From Clostridiaceae bacterium (GTDB taxonomy: Bacteria; Bacillota; Clostridia; Saccharofermentanales; UBA5734), in contig JAAYJD010000142.1 of the NCBI GenBank assembly GCA_012523135.1, forward strand, positions 91,294-126,985: a DNA stretch of 35,692 bases, written 5' to 3'. Under the pieces are notes generated by a model, which saw only the letters and a program-made list of their open reading frames with translations, was not told where the DNA came from and did no database searches. A program made the translations under genes and the position numbers. This document shows, piece by piece, positions 11,271 to 23,720 of the stretch; positions within the stretch are counted from its first letter, which is position 1, and each line of letters begins with the position of its first letter.

Positions 11271-12812
11271 GTGCTCAAGCAATATCGCTCCCTGATCGTT
11301 TTCGGTGCCATTATCGTCGTCCTCCTGCTGGTCTGGATCGGCTCCGCCGTGATCCCGGGCCTGGGGAAGAGCGAAGAAACCACCACCACGACCACCGCCG
11401 CGGCCATCGAACCGCTGTTCAAAACGGACATGACCGCCATCCAGCACCTGGAGGTTGTCAATACATCCGGCAGCTTTAAGCTGATCCCGGAGGAAGTCAA
11501 GGACAAGGATGACAAAATCGTCCAGATCTGGTCGGTCGACGGCAAGGAAGACTATCCGTTTTCCTCGTCAACACTGGAAAGCCTGGCCAAGGTGGCCGGC
11601 AATGTCTATGCCAGCAAGGAAATCGCCACAGGTGTGACCGACCTGGCTGCCTACGGCCTCGACAAGCCGAGTGCGACGCTGCGTGTCCATCTCAAGGACG
11701 GTGCCGTGCATGAGATCAAGTTCGGCAATGAGATCCCGTCCGGCTACTATGACTACGCGATGCTCGACAACTCCGGCCGCGTCTGTACGGTGGCCAGCAG
11801 CACCGGCGGCCGTGTCCGGGTGACGCTGATGGACCTGCTGGACAAAGCCCAGGTTGTCGGGTTGGACCCCAACACCCTCACCAGCCTTATATTCGAGCGG
11901 CCCAAGGACGATTTAAAGCTGGTCAGCTCGGTCAAACTGATCGGCGAGGCCGGCAGCGGCAGCGAATACCTCGATTTTGCGATCCAGGAACCTGTCCGGC
12001 GCACCGGCAGTTCCGAAGGGCTGACCAAGCTGGTCAGCGAGTCCACGGCCCTCAGCGTGGTCGCGTTTGTCGAACTGGATCCTGCTGACCTGGCCCAATA
12101 CGGCCTGGACAAGCCCCAGTACGCCTTTACGCTGACGACAGAGGACAAGACCGTCAACATTAAAATTGGCAGCAAGGCGGACAGCGCCAATTACTACGCC
12201 ATGTCGGATCAGCTGCCGGCCGTGTTCACGGTCGCGGCCAGCACCTTCACATCTGTCGACATGAAGGTCACCGAAATGATGGACCGCTTCGTCTGCCTGG
12301 AGAGCATCTGGGAAGTCAGCAAAATCGAAGCTGACATTCTGGGCACGACGTTTGTCACCGAGATCGAGATGACCAAAGACCAGCGTGCTGACGACGAAGG
12401 CGTCGTCTACACGATCGACGGTGAAAATGCCCGCATCTTCAGCGAGAAGGACAAGAGCCTGTACAGCCTTTTCTACCAGCGCCTGATCGGCATCCTGATC
12501 GAGGGTCTGGACACAGCGGCCCAGCCGGTCAACACCCGGGACGTACGCCTGGTCTTCCATATCAAGGCCGATGACGTGAACAATGTCCCTGCGTATACGA
12601 AAATTGTTGAATTTGCCCGGCGTGACGACTATACTTATTATGTGTTCACCGACGGCGTCTATGGCGGCTACTATGTCGATGGGGAGAAAGCCTTCACGTC
12701 GAACCGCAAGGACAACGAAGGTGTCCTGGTCGCCTACAAGATGATCCGCTATGCCATGGACCACGCGGTGGACGGGATTTTCAACACGCAGGAAGGTTAT
12801 CAGTTGGACTGA
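11271..12812 (+). CDS. DUF4340 domain protein, membrane-anchored
   Basis: A 513-residue protein with one N-terminal membrane helix (RSLIVFGAIIVVLLLVWIG), a short TTTTTT-type Thr linker, and a large outer part with two DUF4340-type repeats. Each repeat has the pattern AAYGLDKPSATLRVHLKDG...IKFGNE (about 124-150) or AQYGLDKPQYAFTLTTEDKTVNIKIGSK (about 277-304). DUF4340 genes frequently sit next to or are fused with GldG-type genes, so it is probably an accessory of this transporter. Its function is otherwise unknown. The start is GTG, with AAGGAGG 11 bases upstream. The stop overlaps the next ATG (TGATG). Confidence 0.85.
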   Translation: MLKQYRSLIVFGAIIVVLLLVWIGSAVIPGLGKSEETTTTTTAAAIEPLFKTDMTAIQHLEVVNTSGSFKLIPEEVKDKDDKIVQIWSVDGKEDYPFSSSTLESLAKVAGNVYASKEIATGVTDLAAYGLDKPSATLRVHLKDGAVHEIKFGNEIPSGYYDYAMLDNSGRVCTVASSTGGRVRVTLMDLLDKAQVVGLDPNTLTSLIFERPKDDLKLVSSVKLIGEAGSGSEYLDFAIQEPVRRTGSSEGLTKLVSESTALSVVAFVELDPADLAQYGLDKPQYAFTLTTEDKTVNIKIGSKADSANYYAMSDQLPAVFTVAASTFTSVDMKVTEMMDRFVCLESIWEVSKIEADILGTTFVTEIEMTKDQRADDEGVVYTIDGENARIFSEKDKSLYSLFYQRLIGILIEGLDTAAQPVNTRDVRLVFHIKADDVNNVPAYTKIVEFARRDDYTYYVFTDGVYGGYYVDGEKAFTSNRKDNEGVLVAYKMIRYAMDHAVDGIFNTQEGYQLD

Positions 12813-13954
12813 TGTTACAGCGCCACAACCAACCGGACAAGCAGCGAAACAGAGCCAGCCTGATCGTGATGATCGTGCTGGCTTTCCTGCTTATGGCCGG
12901 CACCGCCGTGCTGGTCAGCCAGCTTCCCGAAGATGAAGCCTGGCGTCTGAACACGACCGCAGAACCGACCGGCAGCCCGCTGGCCGGTTTTGCCTGTGAC
13001 GCCGCCGAGGCACAGAACCTCTATCCGTTCGGCGACAGCCTGGTCCGGCTGTCCACCGGCCGCATCACCAGCCTCGACATCCTCGGCAACGAACGCTTTG
13101 TCGTCGATGTCGATTTCGCTTCGCCTTACGCGGTCGTGCAGGGCCGTTGGCTGCTGGCCGCGGACCGGGACGGCCCCGGTTACGTGATGCTGACCTCTGA
13201 CGGGCTGGCCTTCCAAGGCGAGCTGAACGGTCCGGTCAGCGGCGCGGCTGTCGGGCCGGACGGTGTCACGGCCCTGATCCAGAACCAGCAAAATGGCAAC
13301 GGCATCGTCTCCGTTCTCGAGGCGGGCACCGGCAGGCACCTTTTCGACTGCCATTTTCCGGAGTCCGGTTATGTCCTTTCGGTAACTTTTTCCGACCGTG
13401 CCAGCTTCGATGTCAGCCTGGTCAACACGGACGGATCCGCCGTGCAGCCGATCATCAAGCGCTACAATATCCAGGGCAGCCAGACCGGGCAGCTGATCCC
13501 CGATCTGGCCGCATTGTACCCGCTGCTGAGCCATACGCGCCAGGGTGACCCGGTTTTAGCTGGCGCAAACCAGCTGGCCGCGCTGTCCTACACGAGTGAC
13601 GGACCGCTCTGGACACGGGCGTTTCAGCGGATCCAGGCACTGGTGTCGCACGAAGACCGCCTTTATGTTCTGGCGGCAGAGTCGCTCAACAGTAGCCTCG
13701 GCCTTTACCTGTTCGACGCCGCCGGCGCCGAAAAACGGCTGTACGACATCGGTGAATCCGCGATCGGGCCTGTGCTGTCCGGCCGTCTGGCCGGAGTCGC
13801 CAGCGGGACGCGCCTGCTGATCCTGGACAGCCAGAGCGGGGAACTGCTGCAGGAGGAAAACCTGTCGGCAGATATTGTACGTTTTGCATTTAACGGGCAA
13901 ACCAGCGTGACCGTGGTCACAAACAGCGGTGTCAGCAGCCTGCCCGTCCGCTAA
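12812..13954 (+). CDS. DUF5711-like membrane-anchored beta-propeller protein
   Basis: A 380-residue protein with a basic N-terminus, one membrane helix (SLIVMIVLAFLLMAGTAVLV), and an outer domain made of repeated short beta-strands. Examples are SLVRLSTGRITSLDILGNERFVVDVDF, GRWLLAADRDG, YVMLTSDG and RLLILDSQSGELLQEE. This is the look of a seven- or eight-bladed propeller as in the clostridial DUF5711 family. No catalytic motif is visible. It is translationally coupled to the DUF4340 gene and is the last gene of the Gld-like cassette, so it may act with the outer domains of that complex. The family assignment is from memory of its general layout and is less certain than the topology. Confidence 0.55.
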   Translation: MLQRHNQPDKQRNRASLIVMIVLAFLLMAGTAVLVSQLPEDEAWRLNTTAEPTGSPLAGFACDAAEAQNLYPFGDSLVRLSTGRITSLDILGNERFVVDVDFASPYAVVQGRWLLAADRDGPGYVMLTSDGLAFQGELNGPVSGAAVGPDGVTALIQNQQNGNGIVSVLEAGTGRHLFDCHFPESGYVLSVTFSDRASFDVSLVNTDGSAVQPIIKRYNIQGSQTGQLIPDLAALYPLLSHTRQGDPVLAGANQLAALSYTSDGPLWTRAFQRIQALVSHEDRLYVLAAESLNSSLGLYLFDAAGAEKRLYDIGESAIGPVLSGRLAGVASGTRLLILDSQSGELLQEENLSADIVRFAFNGQTSVTVVTNSGVSSLPVR

Positions 13955-19467: not shown

Positions 19468-19493
19468 AAGAAAAAACGAAAGGGCTTTTAACC

Positions 19494-22400
19494 ATGAAAA
19501 AGCGCTTCCGCATTCTTCTGGCCAGCCTGCTGATCGGTCTGGTACTCCTTCAGACCGTACCGCACAGCACGAAGGCGACCGCGAATCCGACGGCGGTGGG
19601 CCTGACCGAGTTTGTCCTCAAAACCTGGCGGCAAGGCTGGGGCTATGTCTACGGCACCTACGGGCAGCTCATGACCCAGTCCCTGATCGACAGCAAAGCC
19701 CGCCAGTACCCGGCAGCCTTTGCCGAAGTGAAAAGCGACGGGCGGACGGTCTATGCGCATGCCCAGGAATGGATCGGGGTGCGTGCCGCCGACTGCGTCG
19801 GCCTGGCCAAAGCCTACCTCTGGTGGGTCGATGACCGTATCGGGCCCCAATATTCGGCCTCGACGGACGTTTCGGCCAACGGCCTGTTTTATCGCTCCAC
19901 GGTCAGAGGCCCGATGAGCACGATCCCGAACACGCATGGCGTGATGGTCTGGCGCGACGGCCATGTGGGCATTTACGTCGGCAACGACGAAGTGATCGAG
20001 TCGCGCGGGGTTGAATACGGCGTCGTCCGGACCCGGCTCAGCGACCGCAACTGGACCAGCTGGTTTCTCCATCCCAACCTGAAATACAACGCCCAGGGCT
20101 GGACCCAGATCGACGGCAAAACCTTCTACTACCGAAACGGCGCATACCTCACCGGACCGCAGGTGATCGACGGACAAGTCTGCCTGTTCGGCCAGGATGG
20201 TGTGCGGCTGACCGGGTTCCAGGCCGTTGGCGGCCAGCTGCGTTATTACACGGCTGACGGTTCGGTGCTGACCGGCTGGCAGACGATCGACGGCAACCGC
20301 TATTATCTGGATGCGGCGGGCCAGCCGCTGACCGGCCGGCAAACACTGGATAACCAGACGTATTATTTCGGTTCCGCCGGCACACGGCTGACCGGCTGGC
20401 AAACCGACGAAGGGCAAATCCTCTACCTGGATGAGCAGGGACTGGGCCGATCCGGCGCAGTAGCTGTCGATGGCCGCACCGTGATGCTGGACAATTCCGG
20501 TCGCCTGGTGCGCGGCTGGCTCGAAGACGCCTCTGGCTGGCGCTGGTACGCGCCTGACGGTGCGGCGGTGCCGGCCGGCTTGCTGCAGACCGCTGACGGC
20601 GCTTACTGGCTGGACGCGCAAGGCGTGCGCCAGACCGGCTGGCAACAGGTGGATCAGCGCGACGTCTGGTTCGATCCCCAGACCGGCCTGCGCGCGACGG
20701 GCGGCACGCTGATCCCGGACCCGGACCAGGCCGCGGTCGTGGTCCGTCTGCAAGCGGACGGGTCTCGCGCCGATTCCGGCAAACCGGTCCTGCTTGACGG
20801 CCTCTGGCAGCTCTGCGACACGCAAGGGTGCCTGATCAACAGCGAAACCGAACTGGCGGCGGTCAACGCCGGCGGTGAAACCGTGCCGGTGCTGCTGGCC
20901 ATCGGGGGCGAACCCCTGGCGCTGCAGCTGGCCAACCAGGATGCCTTTGCCGTTATCCTGCCAGTGGATGTCGTCGAACAGCCGGCGGGGCCGGCTGTCC
21001 AGGCAACCCTCAGCGGCAGTGCCCCGACTGAAGGCAACTGGATCTCCTTTGACCCGGCCGTGGCCGCGATCGACGCGGTCGGCCAGGTTACACCGGTCGG
21101 TCCCGGGCAGACTTTGGTTGGCTTCCTGGCCGGAAACCAGTACGCGCTGGCCGGCCTGACCGTCCTGCCCGACCCGGCCAGCCTTGCCGCGCCGTCCGAC
21201 CCGGTCCGGCTCTCGCCCGGCAGCGGCCTGGATTATCCGGTCACCGGTCTTATGCCAGCGCTCCGCCCGTTCTACACACTGCGCACATCTGATCCCGAAA
21301 CCGTCGCAATCCGGCCTGACGGCGGCCTGGCCGCACATCAGCCCGGGCAGGCGACCCTGACCTTGCTGCGTGAGGACAGGGAAGTCCTGTCCTGTACCGC
21401 GACGGTCGCCTGGCCCGCAATCGGGCTGACGGCGGACCGCGATGTCCTTCACCTGGCGCTGGGCGAATCCCGCCAGGCTCCGGTCGGCGTGCTGCCTCAA
21501 GAGGTATCGGCCGGCCTGACGTACAGCAGCAGCCAGCCGCTGGTCGCCTCCGTGAACGAAGACGGCCAGATCAAAGGCCTGACCACCGGCGAAACGACCA
21601 TCACCGCGCAAAGCGGCAGCCTGACCCGGACGCTTCGGGTCAGCGTCAGCGGCACTTTGCCGACACTTGGCCGCGGGACCAGCGGTGAAGCGGTCCTGCG
21701 CCTGGAGGAATCGCTGGCCCGACTGGGCTACCTGCCGGAAGCGCCGGACAGCCAGATGGGTCCGCTCGACGAATATGCGGTGCGCTGCCTGCAAGTCAGC
21801 CTCAAGTTAAAGCCGACCGGCCAGGCCGACCACGCCCTGCAGCAGCTGCTGTATGACGGGACGGCGCCGGCGGCCGCACCGGCCCAGGTAGCCGGAACGC
21901 TGCGCGCCGGAGACCAGGGCGGGCAAGTCCTGGTCCTGCAGCAGCGCCTGGTCGACCTGCATGTCCAGAAAACAGTCGCGGACGGCATCTGGAATGCACA
22001 CACCACCCAGGCCATGATGACACTGCAGTTGCTCAACGGCCTGGAGCCGAACGGCATCGCCGGCACCGACGAGATCCGCCTCGTGTTCAGCGCCGGCGTC
22101 ATTCCGGGACGTGACGCGCTGCAGTTGGAGGATACCGGCCACGAGGTCGTTCTGCTGCAGGAACGCCTGCAGAGCCTGGGTTATTACGGCGGACCTGTCG
22201 ACGGACGCTTCTCGAGCGCTGTGGAAAAGGCAGTCAGCCAGTTTCAGGTCCGCTGCGGGCTGACCGATGACGGCGTCGCCGGACCGACAACCCAAAAACG
22301 CCTTTTCGGCGCGGACGCGCCGGTCGCGCCGGGCACATCGCCGGCGCCTGTTACACCCGCTCCGACGGTCACACCGGTGCCAGCACCCGCGGACGACACC

Positions 22401-23720
22401 ATCGCCAGGGGCAGTCCGGCCGAACAGGTCACCGCTCTCGAGGCCAGACTCGTCGCCCTCGGTTACCACTATGCGCTGCCGGACGCGTCGTTCGATGATT
22501 TGACGGACGTCTCGGTGCGCAACTTCCAGGTGCGCGCCGCCTTGCCCGTGACCGGACTTGCCGACCTGGAGACCCAGAAACGGCTGGTTTCTTCTGCTGC
22601 GCCGCGTTCTGCGACCTCGTACCGCTACGGCAGCAGCGGCGACAACGTGCGCCGGATCCAGCAGCGCCTGATCGATCTCAAGATTCTGTATGACATCGTC
22701 GACGGGAAATTCGGCCCGAAGACAGAAGCGGCTGTCAAAACCTACCAGCGCAGCGTCGGGCTGGCTGTCGATGGTTCAGTCGGCCCGCTGACCGCCGCCA
22801 GACTGTTCCAGTCCCCGGTACCGGTCGCGCCGCTCAACCCTGGTGCCGCCGCGCCAACGCCGACACCGACGCCGACCCCGACCCCGACACCCGCCCCGAC
22901 GCCAACCGCCGCACCTACGCCTACGCCTACGCCTACGCCGACCCCGACGCCGACCCCGGCACCCGCCGCTCCGGACGTTCTGAGCCGGGGCAGCAGCGGT
23001 GGATCGGTCGCCGCGCTGGAGAGCCGCCTGGTGGCGCTCGGTTACCACTATGCGCTGCCCGACACGGCCTACGACAGCGTGACCGAAGCAGCGGTCGCCA
23101 GCTTCCAGGCCCGTGCCGGTTTGCCGAAAAATGGCGTGGCCGACCTGGCGACGCAAAGCCGCCTGCTGGCGGCAACGGCGCCCCGTTCCGCGCAATCCTA
23201 CCGCTATGGCAGCCACGGGGACGACGTGCGTCGCATTCAACAGCGCCTGATCGATCTCAAGTTTCTGAACGATGCCGCCGATGGCCGGTTTGGACCGAAG
23301 ACAGAAGCCGCCGTCAAGGCTTACCAGAAAAACGGCGGTTTGAGCAGCGATGGCATCGTCGGACCGCGTACCGTGGCCAAACTGTTCTATGCCCCGGTCC
23401 AGGCGGTGCTGCCCGACCCGGGCACCGGTTCGCCGTCAACGCCAGCCCCGACGCCAGATCCGCAGCCGCAGCCAGGCCAACTGACCCCGCCTGTCCTGAA
23501 CGGCAGCCTGCGGCGCGGCAGCACCGGCGAAGCAGTTCGCCAGGTCCAGCTCAGGCTGGCTGAACTGCATTATCCGGTCGGTTCAGCAGATGGTAAATTC
23601 GGGCCGATGACCGAACAGGCTGTCCGGCTCTTCCAGCGCAAGGCCAGGATCACGGTCGACGGCATCGTCGGACCGCAAACCATCCAGGTGCTTTACAGCA
23701 CAGCGGCGCCCGTTTACTAG
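19494..23720 (+). CDS. Secreted modular cell-wall protein: NlpC/P60-like, choline-binding-type repeats, Ig-like and peptidoglycan-binding domains
   Basis: The 1408-residue exported protein starts with a Sec signal peptide (basic MKKRFR, hydrophobic core, likely cleavage after ATA near residue 30). Residues about 35-195 form an NlpC/P60-like cysteine peptidase-like domain with candidate nucleophile Cys101 (RAADCVGLAK) and His157 (WRDGHVGIYVG). Residues 200-404 are tandem choline-binding-type wall repeats (for example TGWQTIDGNRYYLDAAGQPL). Residues about 480-722 look like bacterial Ig-like (Big2-type) domains. From 723 to the end come eight peptidoglycan-binding type 1 domains (RxGSxGxxVxxLQxRL...G..DGxFGPxTExAVxxFQ), separated by Pro-Thr linkers. 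It probably remodels or holds onto peptidoglycan outside the cell. No sortase motif or C-terminal membrane anchor is present. The ATG follows GAAAGGG. It has its own promoter and converges with the ABC-F gene. Confidence 0.88.
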   Translation: MKKRFRILLASLLIGLVLLQTVPHSTKATANPTAVGLTEFVLKTWRQGWGYVYGTYGQLMTQSLIDSKARQYPAAFAEVKSDGRTVYAHAQEWIGVRAADCVGLAKAYLWWVDDRIGPQYSASTDVSANGLFYRSTVRGPMSTIPNTHGVMVWRDGHVGIYVGNDEVIESRGVEYGVVRTRLSDRNWTSWFLHPNLKYNAQGWTQIDGKTFYYRNGAYLTGPQVIDGQVCLFGQDGVRLTGFQAVGGQLRYYTADGSVLTGWQTIDGNRYYLDAAGQPLTGRQTLDNQTYYFGSAGTRLTGWQTDEGQILYLDEQGLGRSGAVAVDGRTVMLDNSGRLVRGWLEDASGWRWYAPDGAAVPAGLLQTADGAYWLDAQGVRQTGWQQVDQRDVWFDPQTGLRATGGTLIPDPDQAAVVVRLQADGSRADSGKPVLLDGLWQLCDTQGCLINSETELAAVNAGGETVPVLLAIGGEPLALQLANQDAFAVILPVDVVEQPAGPAVQATLSGSAPTEGNWISFDPAVAAIDAVGQVTPVGPGQTLVGFLAGNQYALAGLTVLPDPASLAAPSDPVRLSPGSGLDYPVTGLMPALRPFYTLRTSDPETVAIRPDGGLAAHQPGQATLTLLREDREVLSCTATVAWPAIGLTADRDVLHLALGESRQAPVGVLPQEVSAGLTYSSSQPLVASVNEDGQIKGLTTGETTITAQSGSLTRTLRVSVSGTLPTLGRGTSGEAVLRLEESLARLGYLPEAPDSQMGPLDEYAVRCLQVSLKLKPTGQADHALQQLLYDGTAPAAAPAQVAGTLRAGDQGGQVLVLQQRLVDLHVQKTVADGIWNAHTTQAMMTLQLLNGLEPNGIAGTDEIRLVFSAGVIPGRDALQLEDTGHEVVLLQERLQSLGYYGGPVDGRFSSAVEKAVSQFQVRCGLTDDGVAGPTTQKRLFGADAPVAPGTSPAPVTPAPTVTPVPAPADDTIARGSPAEQVTALEARLVALGYHYALPDASFDDLTDVSVRNFQVRAALPVTGLADLETQKRLVSSAAPRSATSYRYGSSGDNVRRIQQRLIDLKILYDIVDGKFGPKTEAAVKTYQRSVGLAVDGSVGPLTAARLFQSPVPVAPLNPGAAAPTPTPTPTPTPTPAPTPTAAPTPTPTPTPTPTPTPAPAAPDVLSRGSSGGSVAALESRLVALGYHYALPDTAYDSVTEAAVASFQARAGLPKNGVADLATQSRLLAATAPRSAQSYRYGSHGDDVRRIQQRLIDLKFLNDAADGRFGPKTEAAVKAYQKNGGLSSDGIVGPRTVAKLFYAPVQAVLPDPGTGSPSTPAPTPDPQPQPGQLTPPVLNGSLRRGSTGEAVRQVQLRLAELHYPVGSADGKFGPMTEQAVRLFQRKARITVDGIVGPQTIQVLYSTAAPVY
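22398..23424 (+). repeat. Duplicated pair of peptidoglycan-binding domains within the wall protein gene
   Basis: Two copies of a two-domain module, about 440 bases each, lie at roughly 22398-22845 and 22977-23424 with an exact offset of 579 bases (193 codons). Landmarks repeat at DNA level: GGTTACCACTATGCGCTGCC at 22461 and 23040, and CAGCGCCTGATCGATCTCAA at 22662 and 23241. The Pro-Thr linker lies between them. This indicates a fairly recent in-frame duplication. Confidence 0.85.
22848..22972 (+). repeat. Pro-Thr low-complexity repeat tract
   Basis: A run of CCN-ACN codons encodes an Ala-Pro-Thr-Pro linker of about 40 residues, in which ACGCCG, ACGCCT, ACACCG and ACCCCG units alternate. It is a flexible spacer in the wall protein and is prone to length change by slippage. 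The unit is six bases, so the frame survives changes in copy number. Confidence 0.8.

Follow-up and report, generated by a model that had tools for sequence, protein, structure and literature searches.

Gene and domain organization

The window, a 35,692-nucleotide stretch of DNA from a Clostridiaceae bacterium, comes from a genome of 3.42 Mb in 366 contigs that is 97.46% complete and 4.64% contaminated. In the frame listing of the window, positions 19494–23720 of the forward strand form one intact reading frame, which starts with ATG and encodes a protein of 1408 residues. A promoter scan gave nothing promoter-like on the coding strand ahead of the gene. The ten neighboring proteins are assigned by Pfam to DUF5711, peptidase M3, CYTH, two FAD proteins, an ABC-F-like protein, a LeuA-like protein, parts of an aconitase and Iso_dh. 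The DUF5711 protein (12812–13954) has no assigned function.

The Pfam listing for the protein comprises eight families at E≤1. PG_binding_1 (eight stretches, E = 2.9e-116), Choline_bind_3 (three stretches, E = 2.8e-25) and Big_2 (E = 3.1e-10) score above their cut-offs. NLPC_P60 stays below its own (residues 155–192, E = 0.042, 14.3 bits against a cut-off of 23) and reaches 19.1 bits in the whole-genome search. The domain plan is as follows:

19494..19577, + strand: probable Sec signal peptide (residues 1–28), recognized by eye on the translation from a KKR n-region and a hydrophobic core
19578..20099, + strand: NlpC/P60-like cysteine peptidase domain (residues 29–202) with Cys101, His157 and Glu169, from the AF2 model, VIA-align and conservation
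20094..20705, + strand: about ten cell-wall/glycan-binding repeats of ~20 residues (residues 201–404), from Choline_bind_3, a count by eye and relatives among PDB sequences
20931..21179, + strand: possible degenerate Ig-like (Big_2-type) segment (residues 480–562), weak profile match
21180..21437, + strand: possible degenerate Ig-like (Big_2-type) segment (residues 563–648), weak profile match
21453..21626, + strand: Big_2 Ig-like domain (residues 654–711), Pfam E = 3.1e-10
21681..21848, + strand: PG_binding_1 domain 1 (residues 730–785), 33.6 bits
21918..22070, + strand: PG_binding_1 domain 2 (residues 809–859), 32.3 bits
22137..22304, + strand: PG_binding_1 domain 3 (residues 882–937), 67.1 bits
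22422..22586, + strand: PG_binding_1 domain 4 (residues 977–1031), 43.4 bits
22635..22805, + strand: PG_binding_1 domain 5 (residues 1048–1104), 64.7 bits
22809..22979, + strand: Pro/Thr-rich linker (residues 1106–1162), 40% Pro and 26% Thr by composition
22995..23165, + strand: PG_binding_1 domain 6 (residues 1168–1224), 52.7 bits
23217..23384, + strand: PG_binding_1 domain 7 (residues 1242–1297), 73.2 bits
23523..23693, + strand: PG_binding_1 domain 8 (residues 1344–1400), 73.6 bits

An earlier note on this DNA had described one modular protein of 1408 residues with eight peptidoglycan-binding domains and a single candidate catalytic domain. Both Pfam and a whole-genome search, which recovers the eight PG_binding_1 domains singly, bear this out. 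The pair formed by domains 4 and 5 is duplicated as pair 6–7, with 62.5% identity across 160 aligned positions. The pairs stand on linkers rich in Pro and Thr, and a 6-base tandem repeat (22847–22958) lies within the linker listed above. Three spacer regions had also been proposed. These may correspond to a clear Big_2 domain (residues 654–711) and two segments ahead of it that resemble it weakly. Against a two-sequence profile of residues 640–722, with controls at 0.71–1.8, residues 480–562 gave E-values of 0.0016 in the window protein and 0.00028 in its ortholog L005 (see below), and residues 563–648 gave 0.00033 and 2.9e-06; the hhalign probabilities were 12.0 and 44.6, respectively. The predicted structure of the stalk (residues 395–725, from two sequences) had a pLDDT of 36.3. 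Profile comparison weakly suggests two extra Ig-like segments before the Big_2 domain.

The PG_binding_1 array also brings with it a name, since the NCBIfam model spore_SleB (TIGR02869) matches at 320.4 bits against a cut-off of 236.5, as would befit a spore cortex-lytic enzyme. This score exceeds the cut-off because it is summed over the eight PG-binding repeats. The match falls into eight stretches, the best of which covers model positions 3–71 of 201, and no SleB-type catalytic domain appears among the eight Pfam families at E≤1. As the catalytic half of SleB was not found, we rejected this identity, regard TIGR02869 as a naming trap, and consider a cortex-lytic role very unlikely. The same model is matched at E≤1e-5 by 27 of 86 relatives of the catalytic domain.

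Ortholog and selection

The ortholog L005, in a second genome of the genus (G003), has 1395 residues from the matching ATG, keeps the whole domain plan and is 80% identical to the window protein over 1394 aligned codons. Its MAG, "Clostridiaceae bacterium isolate AS10tlH2TH_285", was the sole relative in a scan of named genomes, where the window query matched it with 88% identity over 219 query residues. The two flanking genes are also the same: that of the FAD protein lies upstream, and that of the ABC-F-like protein lies downstream on the opposite strand.

The dN/dS between the two genes, from NG86 simple counting on this single pair with dS as high as 1.34 in one short linker, is 0.18 overall, indicating purifying selection. 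The value for the catalytic domain is 0.12 and the binding parts span 0.04–0.20, with 0.09 for the PG_binding pair 4–5. Residues 1336–1408, which include PG_binding_1 domain 8, have the lowest value among the regions compared (0.04, with 95% identity to the ortholog), and peaks occur at residues 401–560 (0.34) and in the Big_2 part (0.38). An antisense frame of 768 residues (19488–21794, reverse strand) spans about half of the gene. L005 does not preserve it: of the antisense frames of at least 150 residues listed inside that gene, the longest has 192. It is therefore most likely a by-product of base composition. Thus, the full length of L005 beside the same two neighbors, the dN/dS of 0.18 and the unkept antisense frame argue that 19494–23720 is not a chance frame.

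Across the genus, the N-terminal part was found in three of five genomes. The earlier note had named truncation in relatives as telling against its reading; L005 is full length, and the G004 copy ends at a contig end, after the first 352 aligned residues and with the same upstream genes as in the window. No PG_binding_1 match was found anywhere in the G004 genome, and either the remainder of the gene lies in an assembly gap or this ortholog has no PG_binding_1 array. Searches of G005 and G006 (completeness 92 and 73) gave no match. One contig of G006 runs from the FAD gene across to the LeuA-like gene; between them lie an ABC transporter pair and a gene resembling one for a glycoside hydrolase, as named from a reading of the translations. 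This matching interval (L139, 1–6895) lacks both the giant gene and the ABC-F-like gene, and is a variable spot between conserved genes. Since the G004 copy is cut at the contig end without an array and G005 and G006 have no match, the full domain plan is seen in two species only.

Fold and predicted active site of the catalytic domain

Structure prediction, proposed earlier as a way of locating the active site, yielded a confident NlpC/P60 fold for residues 29–202. The AF2 model, based on an alignment of 68 rows (the window, L005 and chosen viral loci), has a mean pLDDT of 95.7 and a pTM of 0.90. With VIA-align it matches the NlpC/p60 domain of SagA (Z 14.5, 109 residues, 2.2 Å), BCE_2878 (Z 14.3), LytE (14.2), Acd24020 of C. 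difficile (13.9), RipA and RipB (10.7–12.2), the phage lysin Lys2972 (11.5) and the CHAP domain of LysGH15 (8.2). The top three Foldseek matches were RipB, P60 of MAP1204 and NlpC2 (with modest E-values of 1.1e-4 to 2.7e-4, TMq 0.45–0.52), and TM-scores normalized by the model were 0.31–0.52 among the rows listed. As the non-catalytic RipD also matches (Z 11.6), the fold alone is no proof of function.

Similarity at the sequence level is low. A phmmer search with residues 29–209 gave no match among PDB sequences, the 68-row profile gave weak matches to NlpC/P60 chains (best E 0.0021), and the matches of the window domain to PHROGs were also weak (best E 0.00076, a minor tail protein). The gathering score of NLPC_P60 is not reached by the window domain; 50 of the 86 relatives match this family at E≤0.001. 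Since the model has the papain-like NlpC/P60 fold and the Cys and His of the triad are in place, with the Pfam score below the cut-off, the domain is a divergent branch of the NlpC/P60 (C40) superfamily, outside the Pfam family as curated.

The earlier note had placed the catalytic residues at Cys101 and His157, correctly, but had found the third residue (Glu169 or Asn164) unusual and the activity uncertain. Our alignment of 106 rows (93 distinct) includes near relatives, so that its counts are not independent events. Asp100 and Cys101 are present in all 93 distinct rows and His157 in 92, the exception (L025) being cut short. Position 169 is Glu in 80 of the distinct rows, Gln in six, His in four, Asp in two and a gap in one. 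The distance from the histidine to this position is 12 residues in 102 of the 105 rows in which that histidine is present. Asn164 is not conserved: the 106 rows have Asn at this position in 64 cases, Gly in 28 and Asp in 9.

The window domain thus has Glu169 in place of the canonical histidine. A profile alignment to Spr of E. coli sets the Glu of "VIEA" opposite the His of "FVHA", which we take to be the third catalytic residue of Spr. The four relatives with His at this position tie position 169 to the canonical Cys-His-His triad. Such a triad is given for 2K1G in PMC10318531. For RipA, PMC12067865 describes a triad of Cys383, His432 and Glu444, reports that Glu444 is crucial for activity via an ionic contact with an active-site arginine, and states that Cys-His-Glu is common to RipA, RipB and RipE. 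The RipA mutant structures 4q4g, 4q4n and 4q4t are among the structural matches to our model. RipA and RipB share with the window domain the NlpC/P60 fold, Cys-His-Glu and the 12-residue gap between His and Glu (H432–E444; H157–E169), at 15–20% identity in structure alignments; their accessory parts presumably differ from those of the window protein. Among the 93 distinct rows, 39 have Arg and 18 have Lys at position 171, which by analogy may be the counterpart of the ionic contact to Glu in RipA. From the alignment, Glu169 is the usual third residue of the subfamily, contrary to the earlier view.

With a single catalytic domain for eight PG_binding_1 domains and some ten repeats, the protein could also be one that mainly cross-links the wall as a scaffold, its catalytic domain having gone inactive; non-catalytic NlpC/P60 proteins, such as RipD, do exist. 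However, the domain shares its triad positions with the subfamily as a whole, and the catalytic-domain dN/dS of 0.12 falls within the range of the binding parts (0.04–0.20). Both a scaffold and a long-reach enzyme had been considered earlier; because the triad positions are conserved across the subfamily, we favor an active wall-anchored hydrolase and regard the scaffold as improbable.

Kinship with phage lysins

With the single sequence as query, a viral scan came up empty; a four-row profile found two relatives, and an 11-row profile matched 312 of 416 candidate stretches, of which the best 80 were used. Among the 18 phage records matched, nine are annotated at the match, seven of them as endolysin, lysin, lytic amidase or lysozyme; non-phage elements may be present among the unannotated "Bacteriophage sp." records and the IMG/VR contigs. 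Proteins at the 82 viral loci, counted with duplicates, reach at most 753 residues (median 260), and in 78 of the 82 the domain starts no later than residue 25. A search of the order gave relatives of the catalytic domain in 29 of 188 genomes, and a search of the class in 37 of 391. The latter scored at most nine candidates per genome, so that longer proteins with a weak domain could escape it; its longest other frame, among the places listed, has 623 residues. In the order search, the longest frames listed besides the G003 ortholog have 691 and 632 residues, and both carry DUF4214 and DUF6273 instead. Cellular proteins of the same order (L116:529–2418 and L117:403–2472), which combine DUF4214, a partial lysin-domain match and DUF6273, show a long bacterial architecture of the lysin domain other than that of the giant.

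In the tree, from which 16 of the 106 rows were left out as duplicates or as shorter than 140 residues, the giants' three catalytic domains cluster together with support 100. This group sits within an open fork of 43 rows (support 83), which is otherwise made up of rows from viral contigs, phage records and the order's own N-extended lysins. The tree is unrooted, with a midpoint used for drawing, and carries no direction of transfer between phage and cell. The N-extended lysins (L104–L112, L129) have 311–439 residues, with 146–274 preceding the domain, and at position 169 they have Gln in four of ten and His in four of ten; from their N-terminal part, we take them to be probably of mobile-element or ICE type. 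The same catalytic lineage includes the endolysin XTK82420.1 of the Christensenellales phage NatCom_6392 (34.5% identity to the window domain) and the lysin WDQ45511.1 of Enterocloster phage PMBT24 (26.3%), and the Cys/His/Glu motif is common to these phage lysins and the window domain. The relatives of the catalytic domain are thus for the most part lysins, either of phages or, in similar form, of probable mobile elements.

For partner domains, we scanned with Pfam 86 relatives out of the 93 distinct full frames, with the orthologs L005 and L008 included and L025, L031 and the near-copies or variants L048, L050, L052, L053 and L070 left out. PG_binding_1 occurs in 29, SH3_3 in 10, LysM in nine, SLH in six, and Choline_bind_3 and GH25 lysozyme in five each; Big_2 occurs in L005 alone. 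Since 29 of the 86 carry PG_binding_1 and five carry Choline_bind_3, PG_binding_1 and, more rarely, choline-binding repeats belong to the kit of these lysins. Partner modules similar to those of the window protein are found in the PMBT24 lysin (choline-binding repeats) and in the viral L026 (two PG_binding_1 and LysM). One viral protein (L080:2956–4677) joins the lysin domain to a C-terminal domain of the phi29 gp9 tail-knob type, and is perhaps a tail-borne lysin.

Given this kinship of the catalytic domain, the gene might be the endolysin of a remnant prophage or belong to a mobile element. The ten neighbors, however, are of cellular kinds, the FAD and ABC-F-like neighbors are the same in L005 and the upstream genes the same in G004, and at 1408 residues the protein exceeds the viral median of 260 (82 loci, counted with duplicates). 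The window protein differs from its phage relatives further in its probable signal peptide. No lysis module was seen among the ten neighbors, which are of cellular kinds and of which the FAD and ABC-F-like ones are kept in L005, and we rejected a phage endolysin; a prophage remnant seems extremely unlikely.

Wall-binding modules

All matches to PG_binding_1 (eight) and Choline_bind_3 (three) in the host genome fall within 19494–23720. Choline_bind_1 has two matches, one in this gene and the other, below threshold, in another gene (C129, E 0.088). PG_binding_1 occurs in three of the 23 genomes surveyed in the family, namely the host, G003 and G015 (one frame of 132 residues).

The repeats of residues 201–404 had been described earlier as of the teichoic-acid type, a reading that finds weak support here. 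The host genome, searched for genes of decorated teichoic acid as had been suggested, has no match to LicD (PF04991) at E≤0.001 and none to the TagF-type Glyphos_transf (PF04464); among 14 control genomes, LicD matched in two and Glyphos_transf in three. The protein has the CW-binding repeats of a choline-binding protein; the LicD route to choline on teichoic acids was not found in its genome. The repeats also score higher against those of glucansucrases and large clostridial proteins than against pneumococcal (LytA-type) autolysins, although such bit scores grow with the number of repeats. Given this closer resemblance to glycan-binding repeat regions than to LytA-type ones, and the empty searches for LicD and TagF-type genes, the ligand of the repeats is probably some glycan and not choline-teichoic acid.

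Proposed function

We consider it fairly probable that the protein is an exported peptidoglycan endopeptidase or hydrolase, anchored at multiple points, with a Cys-His-Glu site and an autolysin-like role. The gene is intact, its domain plan and triad positions are conserved, the model has the NlpC/P60 fold, selection is purifying and the catalytic domain is kin to phage lysins. The protein would be secreted and bound non-covalently to the wall, where the N-terminal NlpC/P60-like domain would cut peptide bonds of peptidoglycan stems by means of the predicted Cys101-His157-Glu169 triad. The bond cut would most probably be that between D-Glu and the diamino acid, by analogy with other NlpC/P60 enzymes. 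Many weak contacts with the wall, made through the glycan-binding repeats, the Ig-like stalk and the array of eight PG_binding_1 domains with its Pro/Thr linkers, would confine the enzyme to a limited area instead of its being lost to the medium. We infer that its substrate would be the wall of the cell itself. Against this reading stand the NLPC_P60 score below the Pfam cut-off, the modest model-normalized TM-scores (0.31–0.52) and the fold match to the non-catalytic RipD.

The phage-lysin kinship would fit an enzyme aimed at other cells as well. Such a lysin would be released against other bacteria, in competition or in feeding on dead cells, its modules gripping foreign walls while the phage-type domain cuts. 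The predominance of phage lysins and similar proteins among the relatives of the catalytic domain is in keeping with this, as is the patchy distribution of the gene, which is present in three of five genomes of the genus and missing from the matching interval of G006. Against it, no recognizable immunity gene or secretion partner was found by Pfam among the ten neighbors, and multi-contact anchoring normally retains an enzyme on the wall of its producer. We judge a released lysin to be unlikely and prefer the anchored hydrolase.

Among known wall hydrolases with the NlpC/P60 fold, Acd24020 and Acd33800 of Clostridioides difficile and LytE and CwlO of B. subtilis match the model with VIA-align Z-scores of 12.3–14.2. 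They presumably have other accessory domains and Cys-His-His triads; the window protein differs from them in its CW repeats, Ig-like part and PG_binding_1 array. No publication on a protein of this architecture was found in a thin test with few terms in a licence-limited literature. The parts are ordinary and known, and it is their number and combination that are unusual.

A tentative history, which we put forward as possible rather than likely, is that this clostridial genus acquired the catalytic module of a phage lysin, to which a signal peptide was added, and that the protein then grew as binding modules were added and duplicated in pairs. The product would be a domesticated, immobilized wall-remodeling enzyme with a Cys-His-Glu site, and the only PG_binding_1 protein of its genome. 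A lineage nearly without PG_binding_1 has put its entire set of eight copies of this domain, together with all of its Choline_bind_3 matches, into one phage-lysin-like enzyme. For lysins near or under the NLPC_P60 cut-off, the rule that emerges is that Cys-His-Glu is the usual site, and an apparently unusual third residue is therefore no sign of inactivity.
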